Positions 4,833-31,418 of a stretch of DNA of 64,000 nucleotides are shown here, piece after piece; positions within the stretch are counted from its first letter, which is position 1; each line of letters starts with the position of its first letter. The notes under the pieces were generated by a model. It worked only from the letters and a program-made list of their open reading frames with translations. It was not told the DNA's origin and did no database searches. Origin of the DNA: Rhodoligotrophos defluvii (lineage in GTDB: Bacteria; Pseudomonadota; Alphaproteobacteria; Rhizobiales; Im1). The stretch spans positions 62,001 to 126,000 of the forward strand of contig NZ_SZZM01000002.1 of assembly GCF_005281615.1 (NCBI RefSeq), in the 5' to 3' direction. Both the position numbers and the translations under genes were made by a program.

Positions 4833-5649
4833 CGGCCGCATCGTTCCCGCGGCGGAGGCCTCCGTGCCGGTGGCCGACCGCGGCTTCACCCTCGGCGACG
4901 GCCTGTTCGAGACCATGGCGGTGCATGAGGGCCGGGTGTTGCGGCTGGAGGCGCATCTTGCCCGTTTGCGCCAAGGGCTTGCGGCCCTGCGCCTGCCGCT
5001 GGCCTTGCCTGACCAAGATCTGGCAGACCGTATTCATGCCTTGGTGGCCGTCAATAACTTGCGCGAAGGCTCGCTCCGCCTCACGATAACCCGTGGCCAA
5101 GGTCCCCGCGGCCTCTTGCCGGCCGACCCGCCCCGGCCCGGCGTGATCATCACGGCCAGCCCCTGGGCAAGCCGGCCGACCGAGATTGCGGCGATCATCG
5201 CCCGCTCCACCCGCCGCAACGAGCACTCGCCCCTCTCGCGCGTGAAGGCGCTGGGCTATCTCGACAGCATCCTGGCGCTTATCGAGGCGCAGGAGCAGGG
5301 CGGGCAGGAAGCCATCCTGCTGAACAGTGCCGGGCTCGCCGCCTGCGCCTCCGCCGCGAACCTGTTCGTCATGCGTCAGGGTAAGCTGCTGACCCCGCCC
5401 GTGAGCGACGGCGTGCTGCCGGGCATCGTCAGGGGTGAGATCATCGCGCGCCACGGAGGACAGGAACGCTCGCTTGACCCCGCCGACCTCGCCGCAGCCG
5501 ACGAGATCATCCTGAGCAACAGCCTCGGCCTGCGCTCGGTGGTGAGGCTCGATGAAAAGCCGATCGGAGCCGGCGCCGCGGGGCCTGTTGCACGGCAACT
5601 CGCCGCGGCTATCCCCTTCCCTGGCCATTCACGCCATTGCCGCGCTTGA
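4816..5649 (+). CDS. pabC: Aminodeoxychorismate lyase / class IV aminotransferase
   Basis: This 277-residue fold-type IV PLP enzyme begins MQISIDGRIVPAAEASVPV and continues with DRGFTLGDGLFETM, the class IV N-terminal signature. The PLP lysine is in SRVKALGYLD near residue 145, and ACASAANLF matches the conserved loop near residue 175. It follows and overlaps pabB, so the expected reaction is release of pyruvate from aminodeoxychorismate to give p-aminobenzoate. A branched-chain or D-amino-acid aminotransferase is the alternative from fold alone. The last residues (about HSRHCRA) and the stop codon lie within the first copy of the 84-bp repeat downstream, so the natural C-terminus has been replaced or extended by repeat DNA. 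Confidence 0.88.
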   Translation: MQISIDGRIVPAAEASVPVADRGFTLGDGLFETMAVHEGRVLRLEAHLARLRQGLAALRLPLALPDQDLADRIHALVAVNNLREGSLRLTITRGQGPRGLLPADPPRPGVIITASPWASRPTEIAAIIARSTRRNEHSPLSRVKALGYLDSILALIEAQEQGGQEAILLNSAGLAACASAANLFVMRQGKLLTPPVSDGVLPGIVRGEIIARHGGQERSLDPADLAAADEIILSNSLGLRSVVRLDEKPIGAGAAGPVARQLAAAIPFPGHSRHCRA

Positions 5650-5921
5650 CGCGGCAATCCAGGGCCAAGCGGAACGCCCTTGCCGTGGCGGTTTTGGAGA
5701 AAGATAAGCTATTTCCGTCATTGCCGCGCTCGACGCGGCAATCCAGGGCCAAGCGGAACGCCCTTGCCGTGGCGGTTTTGGAGAAAGATCAGCTATTTCC
5801 GTCATTGCCGCGCTCGACGCGGCAATCCAGGGCCAAGCGGAACGCCCTTGCCGTGGCGGTTTTGGAGAAAGATCAGCTATTTCCGTCATTGCCGCGCTTG
5901 ACGCGGCAATCCAGGGCCAAA
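5636..5921. repeat. 84-bp tandem repeat, 3.4 copies, with palindromic core
   Basis: Copies begin at 5636, 5720, 5804 and 5888, giving a constant 84-bp period; the fourth is only 34 bp long. Each starts with the palindrome ATTGCCGCGC-N3-GCGCGGCAAT-like arms and continues ATCCAGGGCC, followed by a spacer ending in GATCAGCTATTTCCGTC. Copies differ at only one or two bases. Because 84 is divisible by three, open frames of 28-residue repeats appear on both strands; I regard these as artefacts. The array fills the gap between the convergent pabC and ClC genes and could act as a bidirectional terminator. Confidence 0.92.
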
Positions 5922-7459: not shown

Positions 7460-9814
<2,355 letters not shown>

Positions 9815-9849
9815 TCAAGCCGGCCCATGACGGTTTTTCAGTGATCGTC

Positions 9850-9872
9850 ATCACCGGCCTTGAGCCGGTGAT
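9850..9872. repeat. Single palindromic repeat between uvrD and fabH
   Basis: The 23-bp inverted repeat has 10-bp arms ATCACCGGCC / GGCCGGTGAT-like around TTGAG and is followed by CCAGGGCC, the same downstream word that follows the palindromes near 5.7 kb and 14 kb. It lies in the 99-bp gap between two convergent genes, so it can serve as a bidirectional terminator. Confidence 0.8.
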
Positions 9873-9913
9873 CCAGGGCCACAAGGGAAGGCCAGTGCCC
9901 TGCGGGGTGGCTA

Positions 9914-13946: not shown

Positions 13947-14000
13947 CGAGCATGGCCCCTGGATTTGCCGGGTCGAGCCTCTGACATTCTCTACAAAATC

Positions 14001-14510
14001 GTCATGCCCCGGCTCGACCGGGGCATCCAGGGCCACAGTTGCTGAGACTGATTAAGTCGTCATGCCGGCCTTGAGCCGGCATCCAGGGCCACACGGCACG
14101 AACGTTCCCCTTGCGGCCCCTGGATTGCCGCGTCAACCCTCGAAATTTCCCCGCAAAACCGTCATGCCCCGGCTCGACCGGGGCATCCAGGGCCACAGTT
14201 GCTGAGACTGATTAAGTCGTCATGCCGGCCTTGAGCCGGCATCCAGAGCCACACGACACGAATGTTCCCCTTGCAGCCCCTGGATTGCCGCGTCAACCCT
14301 CGAAATTCCCCGCAAAACCGTCATGCCCCGGCTCGACCGGGGCATCCAGAGCCACAGTTGCTGAGACTGATTAAGTCGTCATGCCGGCCTTGAGCCGGCA
14401 TCCCAGGGCCACACGGCACCAACGTCCCCCTGCAGCCCCTGGATTGCCGCGTCAAGCGCGGCAATGACTAAGTTGCTGAGACTACCGTCATGCCGGCCTT
14501 GAGCCGGCAT
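14001..14510. repeat. Composite 160-bp repeat array, about three copies
   Basis: Units start at 14001, 14161 and 14320, so the period is 160 then 159 bp. Each unit has three parts: a palindrome ATGCCCCGG-CTCGA-CCGGGGCAT, a palindrome ATGCCGGCC-TTG-AGCCGGCAT-like, and a half-palindrome GGATTGCCGCGTCAA. The first two are each followed by CCAGGGCC or CCAGAGCC. The last copy ends with a complete GCCGCG/CGCGGC palindrome at about 14442-14467, and one more ATGCCGGCC palindrome lies at 14489-14510. The array fills most of the 621-bp gap between the convergent bamE and DUF4149 genes; I see no gene in it. Confidence 0.92.
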
Positions 14511-14567
14511 CCAGGGCAACCTGACAAGTGGAGCCGGGATGGCGAGTCAAAGAGGAGCCATCTCGCT

Positions 14568-17606: not shown

Positions 17607-18515
17607 TCATGCCGGTTTGGGTTGATCTTCGGCCGGCTGCGCGCCGGCTTCCGATGGAATGGCGCCGCCCCTGGCCTCGGCCTGGAGCTTGTGCGCAATC
17701 TGCTGCGTGATCCGGTCGAGGATGATGGCGAGCAGCACGATGGCGATGCCGGCCTGCACCCCCTGCCCCGCCTCCAGCCGCTGGATCGCCCGCCACACCT
17801 CGCCGCCGAGGCCGCCGGCGCCGATCATGGCGGCGATCACCACCATGGACAGGGCGAGCATGATCGTCTGGTTGATGCCCGCCATGATGGTCGGCAGCGC
17901 CAGCGGCAGTTCCACCTTCACCAGCTTCTGCACGCGGCTTGATCCGAACGCGTCCGCCGCCTCGATCAGCTGCGGCGGCGTCTGCAAAATGCCCAGCGCC
18001 GTGAGCCGGATGGTCGGCGGCATGGCGAAGACGATGGTGGCGAAACAGGCCGACACCGCGCCGAGCCCGAAGAAGGGAATGGCCGGGATCAGATAGACGA
18101 AGGACGGCATGGTCTGCATCATGTCGAGCAGCGGGCTGATGGCGCGCCACACCCGCGGCTTCACGGCCGCCAGAATGCCGATGGGCACCCCGATGAGCAG
18201 CGCCACCGCCGTCGAGAACAGCACCAGCACCACTGTCTGGATCGTGGCGTTCCACAGGCCCAAATTCCACAGGAACGCGAAGCCGAGCACCGCCAGAAGG
18301 GCGATCCGCCGCCCCACGAGCCACCACACCAGGGCGCCGATGGCCACGAGCACCACCCAGGGCGGCAGCCACAGCAGCCCCGAAATGGTCGCATCCAGCC
18401 CGCTGGAGACCACGCGGCTGACCGCACGCGTCAGCCCCGAGAACGTGGCCGTCAGCCAGTCGAGCGCGAGGTCGGCCAGCTCCGCCAGGGGAAAGCGTGG
18501 GATTTGCCAGTCCAT
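17607..18515 (-). CDS. proW: Glycine betaine/proline-type ABC transporter permease
   Basis: The start is at the ATG at 18515, which has a perfect AGGAGG six bases upstream; the longer frame to 18608 only reads through a dispersed repeat. The 302-residue protein has at least six membrane segments and the EAA loop EAADAFGSSRVQKLVKVELP near residue 190, where ProV docks. The N-terminal 60 residues, preceding the first membrane span, are amphipathic as in ProW. It lies 18 bp upstream of proX. The spacing from proV is increased to about 117 bp by the inserted repeat. Confidence 0.93.
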   Translation of the reverse strand: MDWQIPRFPLAELADLALDWLTATFSGLTRAVSRVVSSGLDATISGLLWLPPWVVLVAIGALVWWLVGRRIALLAVLGFAFLWNLGLWNATIQTVVLVLFSTAVALLIGVPIGILAAVKPRVWRAISPLLDMMQTMPSFVYLIPAIPFFGLGAVSACFATIVFAMPPTIRLTALGILQTPPQLIEAADAFGSSRVQKLVKVELPLALPTIMAGINQTIMLALSMVVIAAMIGAGGLGGEVWRAIQRLEAGQGVQAGIAIVLLAIILDRITQQIAHKLQAEARGGAIPSEAGAQPAEDQPKPA

Positions 18516-18523
18516 GTCGCCTC

Positions 18524-18627
18524 CTAGAGCATTTTCGAGCGAAGTGGCTACCGGTTCGCGTAAAGAAAATGCGAGAAACCTAAGGAACGAGAGCATGGTC
18601 CGATCCAACGTGATCGGAGTGCGCTCT
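18524..18627. repeat. Dispersed repeat copy between proV and proW
   Basis: This copy begins CTAGAGCATTTTCGAGCG and contains AAGTGG, CCGGTTCGCG and AAGAAAATGCG, the core also seen at 21668 and 30967. It ends with GCGCTCT, complementary to the AGAGC at its start. The second half differs from the other copies: it has GAGCATGGTCCGATC before the terminal arm. The element fills almost the whole proV-proW gap and adjoins the proW ribosome binding site. Confidence 0.85.
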
Positions 18628-18632
18628 CGGGG

Positions 18633-21667: not shown

Positions 21668-21757
21668 CTAGAGCCTTTTCGAGCGAAGTGGAGCCCGGTT
21701 CGCGTGAAGAAAATGCGACAAAACAAGAAATTAGAGCGAAAAGCGAAAACGCTCTAG
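21668..21757. repeat. Dispersed repeat copy between bioR and bioY
   Basis: This 90-bp copy starts CTAGAGCCTTTTCGAGCG and ends GAAAACGCTCTAG, so the termini are complementary. The core AAGTGG, CCCGGTTCGCGTGAAGAAAA and TGCGAC is nearly identical to the copy inside the LysR gene at 30967. It lies 25 bp after the bioR stop codon and 127 bp before the BioR box of bioY. Confidence 0.88.
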
Positions 21758-28734: not shown

Positions 28735-30315
28735 TCAGTAGCCGGCCGTCGGCATCCACCATTCCCGGCCGCGCCGGGTCTCCACATATTCGGGCCAGCG
28801 CAGGTTGACGGGCGGGTCATAATCGCACAAGGGCGCCAGCCATTGGCTCCCGCCGATGCCGCCGCCCGTGCGCTCCTCGAACTCGCGCTTGGCCGCCAGC
28901 CGCCGCTCGTCATTCTGCATCAGCTCCAGAATGGAGAGAGCGATCGTCTTGGCCGCGCAGACGGTCATGGGATCGATCGTTTCCGGGATGCCGCCCAGCG
29001 CATTCATCACCCAGTCGGGATAGGCATAGCCCGCGGGCGCTGAAAGCATCGGCCGGGCGATATAGAGCCGCGCCGTCGGCGCATGCCAGCACATCTCCGT
29101 ATAATCGTCGGACGTGTAGTTGACCTGCGACGGCGGCAGGTCCCGCCGCAGGATGCGCTCCGCCTCCTCCGGCGGCATCAGCCGCTCGCAATCCGGCAGG
29201 AACGGCTCCGTCATCGGCTCGAGCCCGAGATTGGCCTGGATCTCCCGGGCGATCGCCTTGGCCTTCTCGCCCCAGCGCGGCGCCCCCACCGCTTCGAGCT
29301 TCTTGTAGACCAGATCGGCCATGACGTGATTGGCCAGGCCCGGCCGCGACTTCGAGACCCAGATGCGCTCATACCGGCAATGGGTGAGCTGGGCTGCGGC
29401 CGCGGCGAAGCGGTCGAGCATCATCGTCGCCTGCTCGGCCATCTCCACCGTCGGCACGCGAATGATGTACTGGATCTCCGCAATCCGGGCCGGCAGGTTG
29501 TCGGCCGTCGCCTGGCCCGCAGTCAGGATCGCCTCGCTGATCGACCAGCCGCCCATATGGGGCAGCATGGAATCCCGCAAGGCCTTGCCGCTGTTATACA
29601 TCGCGAACAAAGCATCATTCGCGCCAGGCGCGCGCACCGCGCTATGGGCCTGCGGAATGGGCTGCCCTTCCGCGCGTTTGAGCCAGGTCTCCGGCTCATC
29701 GCAGATGAAGCGATAGACCATCGCATAGGCCGCGCCGCAATGGGTATCCCAGTTCACCGTGTTGCATAGCGGCAGCATATAGCAGGGGTGAAAGCTGATC
29801 ATGGCGTCCAGGCCATCGTAATAGCCGCGCGCTGCATGGATCGGCTTCGAGCCGCGCACCTTCTCGGCCGGCTCGCCGAAGAACTTGAGAGTGCCCTTTA
29901 ACCCCTCGCGCTCCATGGCCGCCTTCGCCGCCAGCACCCCGCCAAAGGCGCTCATGCCCAGGGCCGAATGGGGGTCGGTATGGCCGCCGGCATATTCGGT
30001 CAGGCCTTCCCGGGGCCGCCGCACGGTCGCCGCCGCCTGGCAGTTGCCGGGCACCCCGTCATATTCCGCATAGGAGGCGATCACCGGGCCATCGCCATTG
30101 CGCCATTCCGCCGCGAAGGCGGTCGGCATGCCGCCTGAACCCTCTTCGACCTCGAAGCCCTCGGCGCGCAGCCGTTCCACATACCAGGCGGCGGACTCGT
30201 ACTCGCGCCAGGCGGTCTCGCCCTTGTGCCAGATCTCGCTGGTCCAGCGCGACAAAGCGGCCGCGTTCTCGTCCACCCAGCCGCATGCGGTCCGCTCCGC
30301 GGATGTCGTGCTCAT
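28735..30315 (-). CDS. M20-family amidohydrolase, AbgB-like
   Basis: The start is the ATG at 30315 (MSTTSAERTACGW), with GGGGAGCG upstream, rather than the one seven codons earlier. The 526-residue protein is an M20 metallo-amidohydrolase: SYAEYDGVPG carries the metal Asp, GGHTDPHSALGMSAFGG the His region, and GEPAEKVRGSKP the catalytic Glu. The lid-domain insertion and length match p-aminobenzoyl-glutamate hydrolase subunit B and related enzymes. It is the first gene of the four-gene minus-strand operon and is divergent from a LysR regulator, 110 bp away. The substrate is an amide or acyl-amino acid of unknown nature. Confidence 0.85.
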   Translation of the reverse strand: MSTTSAERTACGWVDENAAALSRWTSEIWHKGETAWREYESAAWYVERLRAEGFEVEEGSGGMPTAFAAEWRNGDGPVIASYAEYDGVPGNCQAAATVRRPREGLTEYAGGHTDPHSALGMSAFGGVLAAKAAMEREGLKGTLKFFGEPAEKVRGSKPIHAARGYYDGLDAMISFHPCYMLPLCNTVNWDTHCGAAYAMVYRFICDEPETWLKRAEGQPIPQAHSAVRAPGANDALFAMYNSGKALRDSMLPHMGGWSISEAILTAGQATADNLPARIAEIQYIIRVPTVEMAEQATMMLDRFAAAAAQLTHCRYERIWVSKSRPGLANHVMADLVYKKLEAVGAPRWGEKAKAIAREIQANLGLEPMTEPFLPDCERLMPPEEAERILRRDLPPSQVNYTSDDYTEMCWHAPTARLYIARPMLSAPAGYAYPDWVMNALGGIPETIDPMTVCAAKTIALSILELMQNDERRLAAKREFEERTGGGIGGSQWLAPLCDYDPPVNLRWPEYVETRRGREWWMPTAGY

Positions 30316-30425: not shown

Positions 30426-31418
30426 ATGCCTTGGCCCGCGCGCACCCTCCCCTCCATGAGTGCCTTACGCGCCTTCGATGCAGTGGCGCGTCACGGGGCG
30501 ATCTGGGCCGCCGCCCGCGAGCTCGGCCGCACGCCGAGCGCCATCAGCCACCAGCTGCGCTTCCTCGAAAAGGAGCTCGGAGCGCCCCTATTTGCCCGTG
30601 TCGGGAAGGTCATCACCCTGACCCCATTCGGCCGGCGCTATGCAGAGGAAGTGCACCGCGCCCTCAGGCTGATCGCCCGGGCCGCCGACGCGGCCGACGA
30701 TGTGGAGCTGCGCGGCTCCCTCACCATCAGCTGCACCTCGGGTTTTGCGACCTTCTGGCTCTGCGGCCACCTCAGCGACTTCCGCAGCCTCTATCCCCAC
30801 GTCAGGCTTCGCATCGTCACGCCACGCCGCCTGGACGACGTGAGCGATCCCGAGGCAGACGTGTTCATCGCCTTCGGCCGCGGCGCCTGGCCGGACCACT
30901 GGTCGGAGCTGCTGGCCCGCGTGGAATTCTCGCCCGTCTGCAGCCCCGGCCTGCTCAACGCCCTTACAGCATCTTCGAGCGAAGTGGATACCGGTTCGCG
31001 TGAAGAAAATGCGACCAAGCAACAGCTTGGAGCGGATCCACGATTCGGAGAAAAGCGGAAACGTGCTGGCGGCCTGCGCCTGCCCGAAGATCTCGCCCGT
31101 CTCACGCTCCTGCACCTTCACGACCACAATGACTGGGCCCTCTGGCTGGGAAAGCTTGGCCTGCCCATGCCGCCGCCCGAGACCGGCATCGTCTTTTCCG
31201 ACATCTACCTCGCGCAGGCCGCCGCCATTGCCGGACAGGGCATCGCCATGGGCGATGACATCGTCTGCGGCCGCGCGCTGGCCGACGGTTTGCTGGTGCG
31301 CCCGTTCGAGCATGCGATCCCCTCGCCCGATGCCTATTATCTGGTCTGCGAGCGGGAACGGCTGGATCAGCCGGCGGTCAGCGCCTTTCGCAGCTGGCTG
31401 AGGGCCTGTTTCTCCTGA
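30426..31418 (+). CDS. LysR-type transcriptional regulator with in-frame repeat insertion
   Basis: A 330-residue LTTR of the GcvA-like group with start ATG at 30426 after AGAGG. The helix-turn-helix lies at residues 10-65 (MSALRAFDAVARHGAIWAAA and TPSAISHQLRFLEKELGAPL). The effector domain follows, with VCSPGLLNAL near residue 180. Residues about 181-215 do not resemble LysR proteins; they are the translation of a 102-bp dispersed repeat (30967-31068). After it the protein resumes normally with LRLPEDLARLTLLHLHDHND. Without it the length would be 296, close to the family norm. The divergent neighbour is the amidohydrolase operon, its likely target. Confidence 0.88.
   Translation: MPWPARTLPSMSALRAFDAVARHGAIWAAARELGRTPSAISHQLRFLEKELGAPLFARVGKVITLTPFGRRYAEEVHRALRLIARAADAADDVELRGSLTISCTSGFATFWLCGHLSDFRSLYPHVRLRIVTPRRLDDVSDPEADVFIAFGRGAWPDHWSELLARVEFSPVCSPGLLNALTASSSEVDTGSREENATKQQLGADPRFGEKRKRAGGLRLPEDLARLTLLHLHDHNDWALWLGKLGLPMPPPETGIVFSDIYLAQAAAIAGQGIAMGDDIVCGRALADGLLVRPFEHAIPSPDAYYLVCERERLDQPAVSAFRSWLRACFS
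30967..31068 (+). repeat. Dispersed repeat inserted in frame within the LysR gene
   Basis: 102 bp starting CAGCATCTTCGAGCGAAGTG and ending GAAACGTGCTG. The core CCGGTTCGCGTGAAGAAAAT is shared with the copies at 18524 and 21668. The ends CAGCA and TGCTG are complementary, as the AGAGC and GCTCT ends of the other copies are. The length is exactly 34 codons and all of them are sense codons in the LysR frame. Confidence 0.9.

Follow-up and report, generated by a model that had tools for sequence, protein, structure and literature searches.

A CIR/RIME-like repeat, probably an IS630-type MITE, inserted in frame in a LysR-type regulator of Rhodoligotrophos defluvii

Within the analysed window, a stretch of 64,000 nucleotides from Rhodoligotrophos defluvii, positions 30426..31418 of the plus strand encode a LysR-type regulator of 330 residues, identified from the list of open reading frames and from its HTH_1 and LysR_substrate Pfam domains. 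Genes were called with a hexamer model for which 21 long open reading frames of the window served as the training set; this caller places the start later (30456-31418), and a longer reading frame begins at 30285. The initial annotation had pointed to a mobile-looking repeat in frame within the effector domain of this regulator, 102 nucleotides long (30967-31068) and free of stops in the LysR frame, bounded by the complementary ends CAGCA and TGCTG, with LysR sequence picking up again on both flanks. All of this was confirmed from the sequence, except that the element, while contributing 102 nucleotides in frame, is better drawn as 106 positions, 30964..31069 of the plus strand, including target-derived ends. 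This copy, with 12 mismatches to the genome consensus, encodes residues 181-214 in a frame referred to here as frame A, and these 34 residues lie between CSPGLLNAL and GGLRLPEDL. The hexamer coding score per codon is +0.48 before the insert, -0.39 in it and +0.55 after it.

Judging from the sequence and the rest of the family, the TA at the 5' end of the copy (30965..30966, plus strand) would be the left copy of a target TA, and the TG at its 3' end (31067..31068, plus strand) a mutated right copy. Of 46 copies, 30 have TA at the 5' end and 33 at the 3' end, and 14 are bordered by CTAG on both sides; the LysR copy reads TA/TG, so that an exact target duplication is not seen. When the consensus structure of the family, obtained with RNAalifold from 32 copies, is projected on the plus strand of the LysR copy, the arm pair of the first hairpin falls at 30969..31012 and the second hairpin at 31029..31068, the latter containing GATTC, a GANTC (CcrM-type) site, at 31042..31046. 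Folded singly as RNA, the LysR copy gives a prediction that differs from the consensus fold. Both of its termini are altered from AGAGC/GCTCT and are complementary anew as CAGCA/TGCTG, a re-pairing that may have arisen either by chance or by compensation.

The repeat belongs to a multi-copy family. Two further copies in the window, already noticed by the initial annotation, are real: one at 18524..18629 (plus strand), between two minus-strand genes and with a diverged second hairpin, and an intergenic one of 90 bp at 21668..21757 (plus strand), in which the second hairpin is shortened. The simple gene caller begins the gene at 17607-18596 within the former copy. That copy adjoins a minus-strand gene, and its terminal CTAG leads into GGAGG before a likely ATG at 18518 (18516-18530), so that the repeat end at 18524 may contribute to a ribosome binding site. 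In the whole genome, BLAST found 48 places (40 scored of 129 candidates) and a pattern search at up to 3 mismatches gave 59 matches, compared with 0 for the reversed-pattern control, a copy number far beyond chance. The consensus has 106 positions and reads CTAGAGC...GCTCTAG, and the 32 aligned copies fold into two hairpins with a linker, for which the covariation support is weak (double changes in 3 of 26 pairs). GANTC occurs in the second hairpin of 35 of 45 full-length copies of this genome and of 10 of 18 in the genome of a second species of the genus (G001). At four loci (L027, L028, L030 and L031) the first unit recurs head to tail 2-4 times, once every 60-66 bp or so. A different palindromic family forms tandem 84-bp and 160-bp arrays in the window at 5624-5920, 9814-9901 and 13965-14526, with the variants GTCATTGCCGCGC...GACGCGGCAATCCAGGG and GTCATGCCGGCC...GCCGGCATCCAGGGCC.

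The pattern was found in 9 of the 121 genomes searched, the present one (G000) included, and exceeds 14 matches only here and in G001, where there are 33; it is absent from the third species of the genus (G002). Related copies occur on plasmids of Sinorhizobium, Rhizobium, Shinella, Bradyrhizobium and others (89 records). A search of phages gave no match, the window contains 0 Rfam matches at gathering scores, and four core words of the repeat retrieved from the literature only an unrelated insect study. The orientation of the copies is uneven: 31 forward and 2 reverse matches lie on the single 4.8-Mb contig of G001, and the 41 forward and 18 reverse matches of the present genome are all forward on contigs C2 and C4 and all reverse on C7, C8 and C10, with no such bias in G037, G078 and G112. 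A replication-linked cause was considered and set aside, as a weak GC skew and GGGNAGGG counts fail to explain the bias.

The ends of the repeat point to the family of transposases that may mobilise it. The genome holds one match to a DDE_3 (IS630-type) transposase, bounded by CTAGAGCA and TGCTCTAG. Together with 14 plasmid insertion sequences, taken from 20 listed of 593 plasmid records that hold a relative of this element, this makes 15 related IS630-family elements (L083, L197-L210). All 15 are bounded by a pair of YTAGAGC ends, which lie 1049-1060 bp from each other. The ends were taken as the TAGAGC nearest the transposase, and single ends could be due to chance, as 400 kb of G001 contain 139 TAGAGC when both strands are counted; paired ends at a near-constant spacing in 15 of 15 elements are not a product of chance. 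The same end pair was found at 0 of 20 other DDE_3 loci (L177-L196). The repeat and the insertion sequences have only about 13 bases in common, namely 13 terminal bases (CTAGAGCATTTTC) that the repeat shares with L201 and L210 at their 5' ends and with L197 at its 3' end. Elements of the IS630 family use TA as their target, which is duplicated on insertion (PMC2170065), with preference for the TA in CTAG according to the title of Tenzen and Ohtsubo, 1991, as cited in PMC2170065. Because its ends match those of the IS630-family elements, the repeat is probably an IS630-type MITE. Among the 9 genomes with the pattern, four (G001, G066, G083 and G099) gave no DDE_3 match at E <= 0.001; therefore, the mobiliser in these genomes was lost or is another one.

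The copies are mostly found between genes, and their ends often coincide with gene ends. The terminal TAG of a copy is the stop codon of a called gene at 24 of 53 loci of the present genome (52 plus the window), at 11 of 29 in G001 and at 5 of 11 in G037, G078 and G112, 40 of 93 in total. Measured from stop codon to copy end, an offset of 0 was found at 41 of 175 ends, compared with 34 for all other offsets up to 60 bp combined, and the stop at offset 0 is TAG in 39 of the 41 and TAA in 2. On plasmids, 7 of the 40 listed matches (of 89 records) overlap an annotated gene; 6 of these were examined, and in each of the 6 the gene ends in the terminal CTAG of the repeat. At one plasmid locus (H12) two genes are involved, one ending at each end of the repeat. 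CTAG is rare in the window, with 27 occurrences versus a mean of 215 for the 24 permutations of ACGT, and outside the copies 13 of 25 lie inside genes, 4 at stops and 8 between genes. By gene context, only 2 of 101 places hold an internal copy, the places comprising 53 loci and 3 window copies of the present genome, 33 loci of G001 and 12 loci of other genomes. Contact at one end was not counted as internal (for example L027, L028, L142, L162, L166, L244 and the window copy at 18524); at L142 a low-scoring open reading frame spans the copy and ends together with it. Relative to the CTAG sites available, the copies shun gene interiors, and we infer that selection removes them from there.

Where CTAG lies in a sense frame, each strand allows two phases of reading. 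No stop interrupts the consensus in any of the four resulting sense frames, and the same holds for 3.8% of 20,000 dinucleotide shuffles, so that the openness is only mildly unusual and selection for it is not claimed. Counts of open frames in 43 near-full-length copies are 32 for A, 26 for B, 36 for A' and 30 for B', against 5 and 20 for the third phase. Of the 46 copies that span 95 positions or more, 20 are 106 bp long, 23 have a net length divisible by three and 16 are open in all four frames. In the Bradyrhizobium-type copies L169 and L211, frame B and reverse frames are interrupted by stops, and frame A stops at the last codon; openness in four frames is therefore not general to the family.

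The regulator is not a lone case, as three further proteins were found with an internal in-frame copy. When the peptide of the LysR insert was compared with proteins of similar length (15 candidates), only the window protein was recovered. With a composite of the four consensus frames as query, 18 of 700 candidate proteins reached E <= 0.01, and 7 of the 18 have a listed Pfam domain; this search is incomplete, having missed the LysR protein of the window. In a protein of the PNPOx family (P0127) the repeat occupies residues 154-187 in frame A, and 8 of 8 homologues are without it (0-4 of the 34 columns filled), 7 of the 15 fetched loci having been dropped because their N-terminal half was missing. 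In a TcuB-like protein (P0129) it occupies residues 190-223, likewise in frame A, and is absent from 13 of 13 retrieved homologues (0-6 of 34 columns filled); in Shinella tcuB, 399 query residues are matched by 1095 bases, 34 residues fewer. The third case, L153 of G001, is a frame-A copy, with the first hairpin unit doubled, in a GlxA-like regulator with DJ-1/PfpI and AraC-type HTH domains; this insert is absent from both same-genus orthologues, in G000 (L260) and G002 (L261), and in Rhizobium gallicum 389 query residues are matched by 1005 bases, 54 fewer. Four unrelated proteins thus carry the repeat internally, all in the hydrophilic frame A. Other candidates were not counted as internal. 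In P0121 and P0122 the repeat, in frame B, lies near an N-terminus resembling a signal peptide, and listed full-length homologue matches to P0121 begin between residues 25 and 70, the majority of them between 65 and 70. The repeat forms an N-terminal extension in P0124, P0134 and P0136 and a C-terminal one in P0123, and these ends may be miscalled. L126 and L130, found by tblastn, are without continuation of LysR or another domain and look like copies beside genes, and the remaining matches of the composite search have no listed Pfam domain.

The insertion in LysR is equally private. In a first alignment (A1) the insert is absent from 12 of 12 other proteins, and in a larger one of 50 proteins (A2, from 120 listed of 404 found) 49 of 49 others have gaps throughout its 34 columns. 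None of these others has the same 34 residues, whose presence in homologues of distant genera the initial annotation had named as a possible counter-result, and a check of the 120 fetched homologues for the insert motifs gave 1 protein, that of the window itself. The same-genus orthologue (G001/L041) aligns over its full length with 67% identity and a gap at the insert, and its DNA has TA at the junction that matches the insertion site. At 113 columns conserved in at least 90% of the other 48 proteins, the window protein departs 6 times and the insert-free orthologue 10 times (one of these a gap). With three outgroups, private changes number 16, 18 and 16 in the window protein versus 30, 21 and 25 in the orthologue, and the gene pair has a dN of 0.163 and a dS of 1.017 (dN/dS about 0.16). 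An AlphaFold2 model built with 50 sequences has a mean pLDDT of 85.6 and a pTM of 0.61, with pLDDT below 50 at residues 193-215 and block means above 90 across most of the effector domain, and its top PDB matches are LysR-type regulators. The model thus predicts that most of the insert is disordered, as a loop of the effector domain, and that the remainder keeps its fold. At the sequence level the gene gives no sign of decay, and its conservation fits a regulator under continued selection, a fit that leaves room for an insert that is not neutral and for a recent loss.

Taken together, the evidence makes it likely that an IS630-type, CIR/RIME-like MITE has inserted in frame in the LysR gene, adding 34 codons as a predicted disordered loop. 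According to the proposed mechanism, a transposase of the IS630 (Tc1/mariner) family would insert the repeat at the TA of YTAR sites, with CTAG preferred. In the C-TAG phase the site is a stop codon, and an insertion there would not alter the protein encoded upstream of it. In the two sense phases the frame would be kept whichever way the element points, as the consensus is stop-free and the net gain is 102 bp, and the host would gain about 34 residues. Most intragenic insertions would presumably be lost by selection, the survivors being those with the hydrophilic frame A in tolerant places. For the LysR copy, a CT-TA-GC site following CSPGLLNA is the probable target.

The consequences for the regulator admit other readings. 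The initial annotation had left it between a tolerated loop and a changed function, and the tolerated loop is preferred because the conserved columns are kept, dN/dS is low and the insert is predicted to be disordered. It is unlikely that the insertion impaired or inactivated LysR and that the frame is intact only because a 102-bp element is stop-free, which would make the gene a pseudogene in waiting. The place of the insert within the effector domain and its non-native codon usage, visible in the hexamer score, speak for such a loss, and a recent inactivation would escape these conservation tests; however, the conserved columns are retained on a branch without excess changes, the dN/dS of the pair is about 0.16, and none of the 11 other differences from the 106-bp consensus makes a stop in the LysR frame. 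Co-option of the insert, by which the charged 34-residue segment would alter the effector response, partner binding or stability, draws on the recurrence of the same hydrophilic frame A in four unrelated hosts, two of them regulators, and is nevertheless improbable, as each insertion is known only from a single genome or protein cluster, the LysR segment is predicted to be disordered and no sign was seen of the peptide being conserved once inserted. An assembly or annotation artefact, which a multi-copy repeat might favour, is hardly credible for a copy with private differences (12 mismatches, unusual ends) and an exact frame, and with similar in-frame copies in three independent sequences. 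As regards the mobiliser, the repeat might have been moved by another transposase, such as one of the IS5 family, which has CTAG-targeting MITEs, or a REP-type tyrosine transposase. MITEPsy1 of Pseudomonas syringae, which is described as inserting at CTAG or YTAA and as tied to an IS5-family element (PMC3189936), and the repeat-bearing genomes without a DDE_3 match lend something to this reading, which is still rather unlikely in view of the YTAGAGC ends common to 15 of 15 IS630-family elements, in a comparison that covered the IS630 family.

The preferred reading, a tolerated in-frame insertion of an IS630-type MITE, can be compared with known repeats. RIME1, of the Hyphomicrobiales, has 106 bp and two palindromes. 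The RIME (Rhizobium-specific intergenic mosaic elements; Osteras, 1995) are, by description, short palindromic intergenic repeats of this order, as here, and the present family adds relatives on Rhizobium and Sinorhizobium plasmids (unlabelled) and mosaic-like tandem units. The CIR, or CcrM-associated intergenic repeats (Chen and Shapiro, 2003, via PMC2229807 and PMC10969869), are about 110 bp long, with two inverted-repeat arms and a linker, TA ends, GANTC at or near the terminal loop and many alphaproteobacterial copies. Judged by description, its two arms, linker and GANTC make the present repeat similar to the alphaproteobacterial repeats of CIR/RIME type. The relevant passages of PMC2229807 state that no CIR was found intragenically, that stops are multiple in all six frames and that mobility needs more information, and those of PMC10969869 call CIRs strictly intergenic and describe RPE fusions. 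The present repeat shares the two-hairpin layout of about 110 bp and the GANTC, whereas it is neither strictly intergenic nor closed in six frames: its consensus is open in four of six, it has in-frame copies in proteins, and its ends match those of IS630-family elements. The Bru-RS of Brucella, listed with the RPE families in PMC2267715, are by description also short palindromic intergenic repeats, of 103-105 bp (PMC2267715).

Likeness in coding is found elsewhere. The RPE of Rickettsia are described as short open-frame palindromes fused into unrelated conserved proteins (PMC2229807, PMC10969869), and the comparison made in the initial annotation holds as an analogy: here too the repeat lies in frame in unrelated conserved proteins whose homologues are without it. 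However, nearly half of the first-reported RPEs are given as lying inside open reading frames (PMC10969869), compared with 2 of 101 places here, and the host order differs. The RUP of Streptococcus pneumoniae, a comparable case, is described as non-autonomous, 107 bp long, with TA termini and with ends tied to an IS630-family element, IS630-Spn1 (PMC2229807). Unlike the present repeat, RUP lies between genes and has stops in each of the six frames, and its host and sequence are different. The IS630-family elements themselves (L083, L197-L210) have the same terminal bases and TA/CTAG-type flanks as the repeat, and differ from it in carrying a transposase within their 1049-1060 bp, where the repeat has none. 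Protein-coding MITEs such as the Rickettsia RPEs are known, and the LysR case is a variant of that kind. Among the papers listed from open-licence full text, none showed an earlier account of a CIR/RIME copy read in frame, of its IS630 ends or of its coincidence with stop codons.

A broader proposition can be put forward tentatively, as a possibility on the doubtful side: the CIR/RIME-type repeats of Alphaproteobacteria may be IS630-type MITEs that are harmless at CTAG, neutral in the stop phase and adding a 34-codon cassette in the sense phase, and may form a recurrent source of disordered segments in regulators and enzymes. If this is true, an IS630-family transposase with YTAGAGC ends would be a testable mobiliser, and the tolerance of a rare CTAG target at stop codons would give a simple reason for the intergenic habit of these repeats. 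It would also provide same-genus pairs, before and after insertion, for the effect of a new 34-residue disordered segment on a regulator. In essence, repeats of a type that has been called strictly intergenic can be taken up into proteins.
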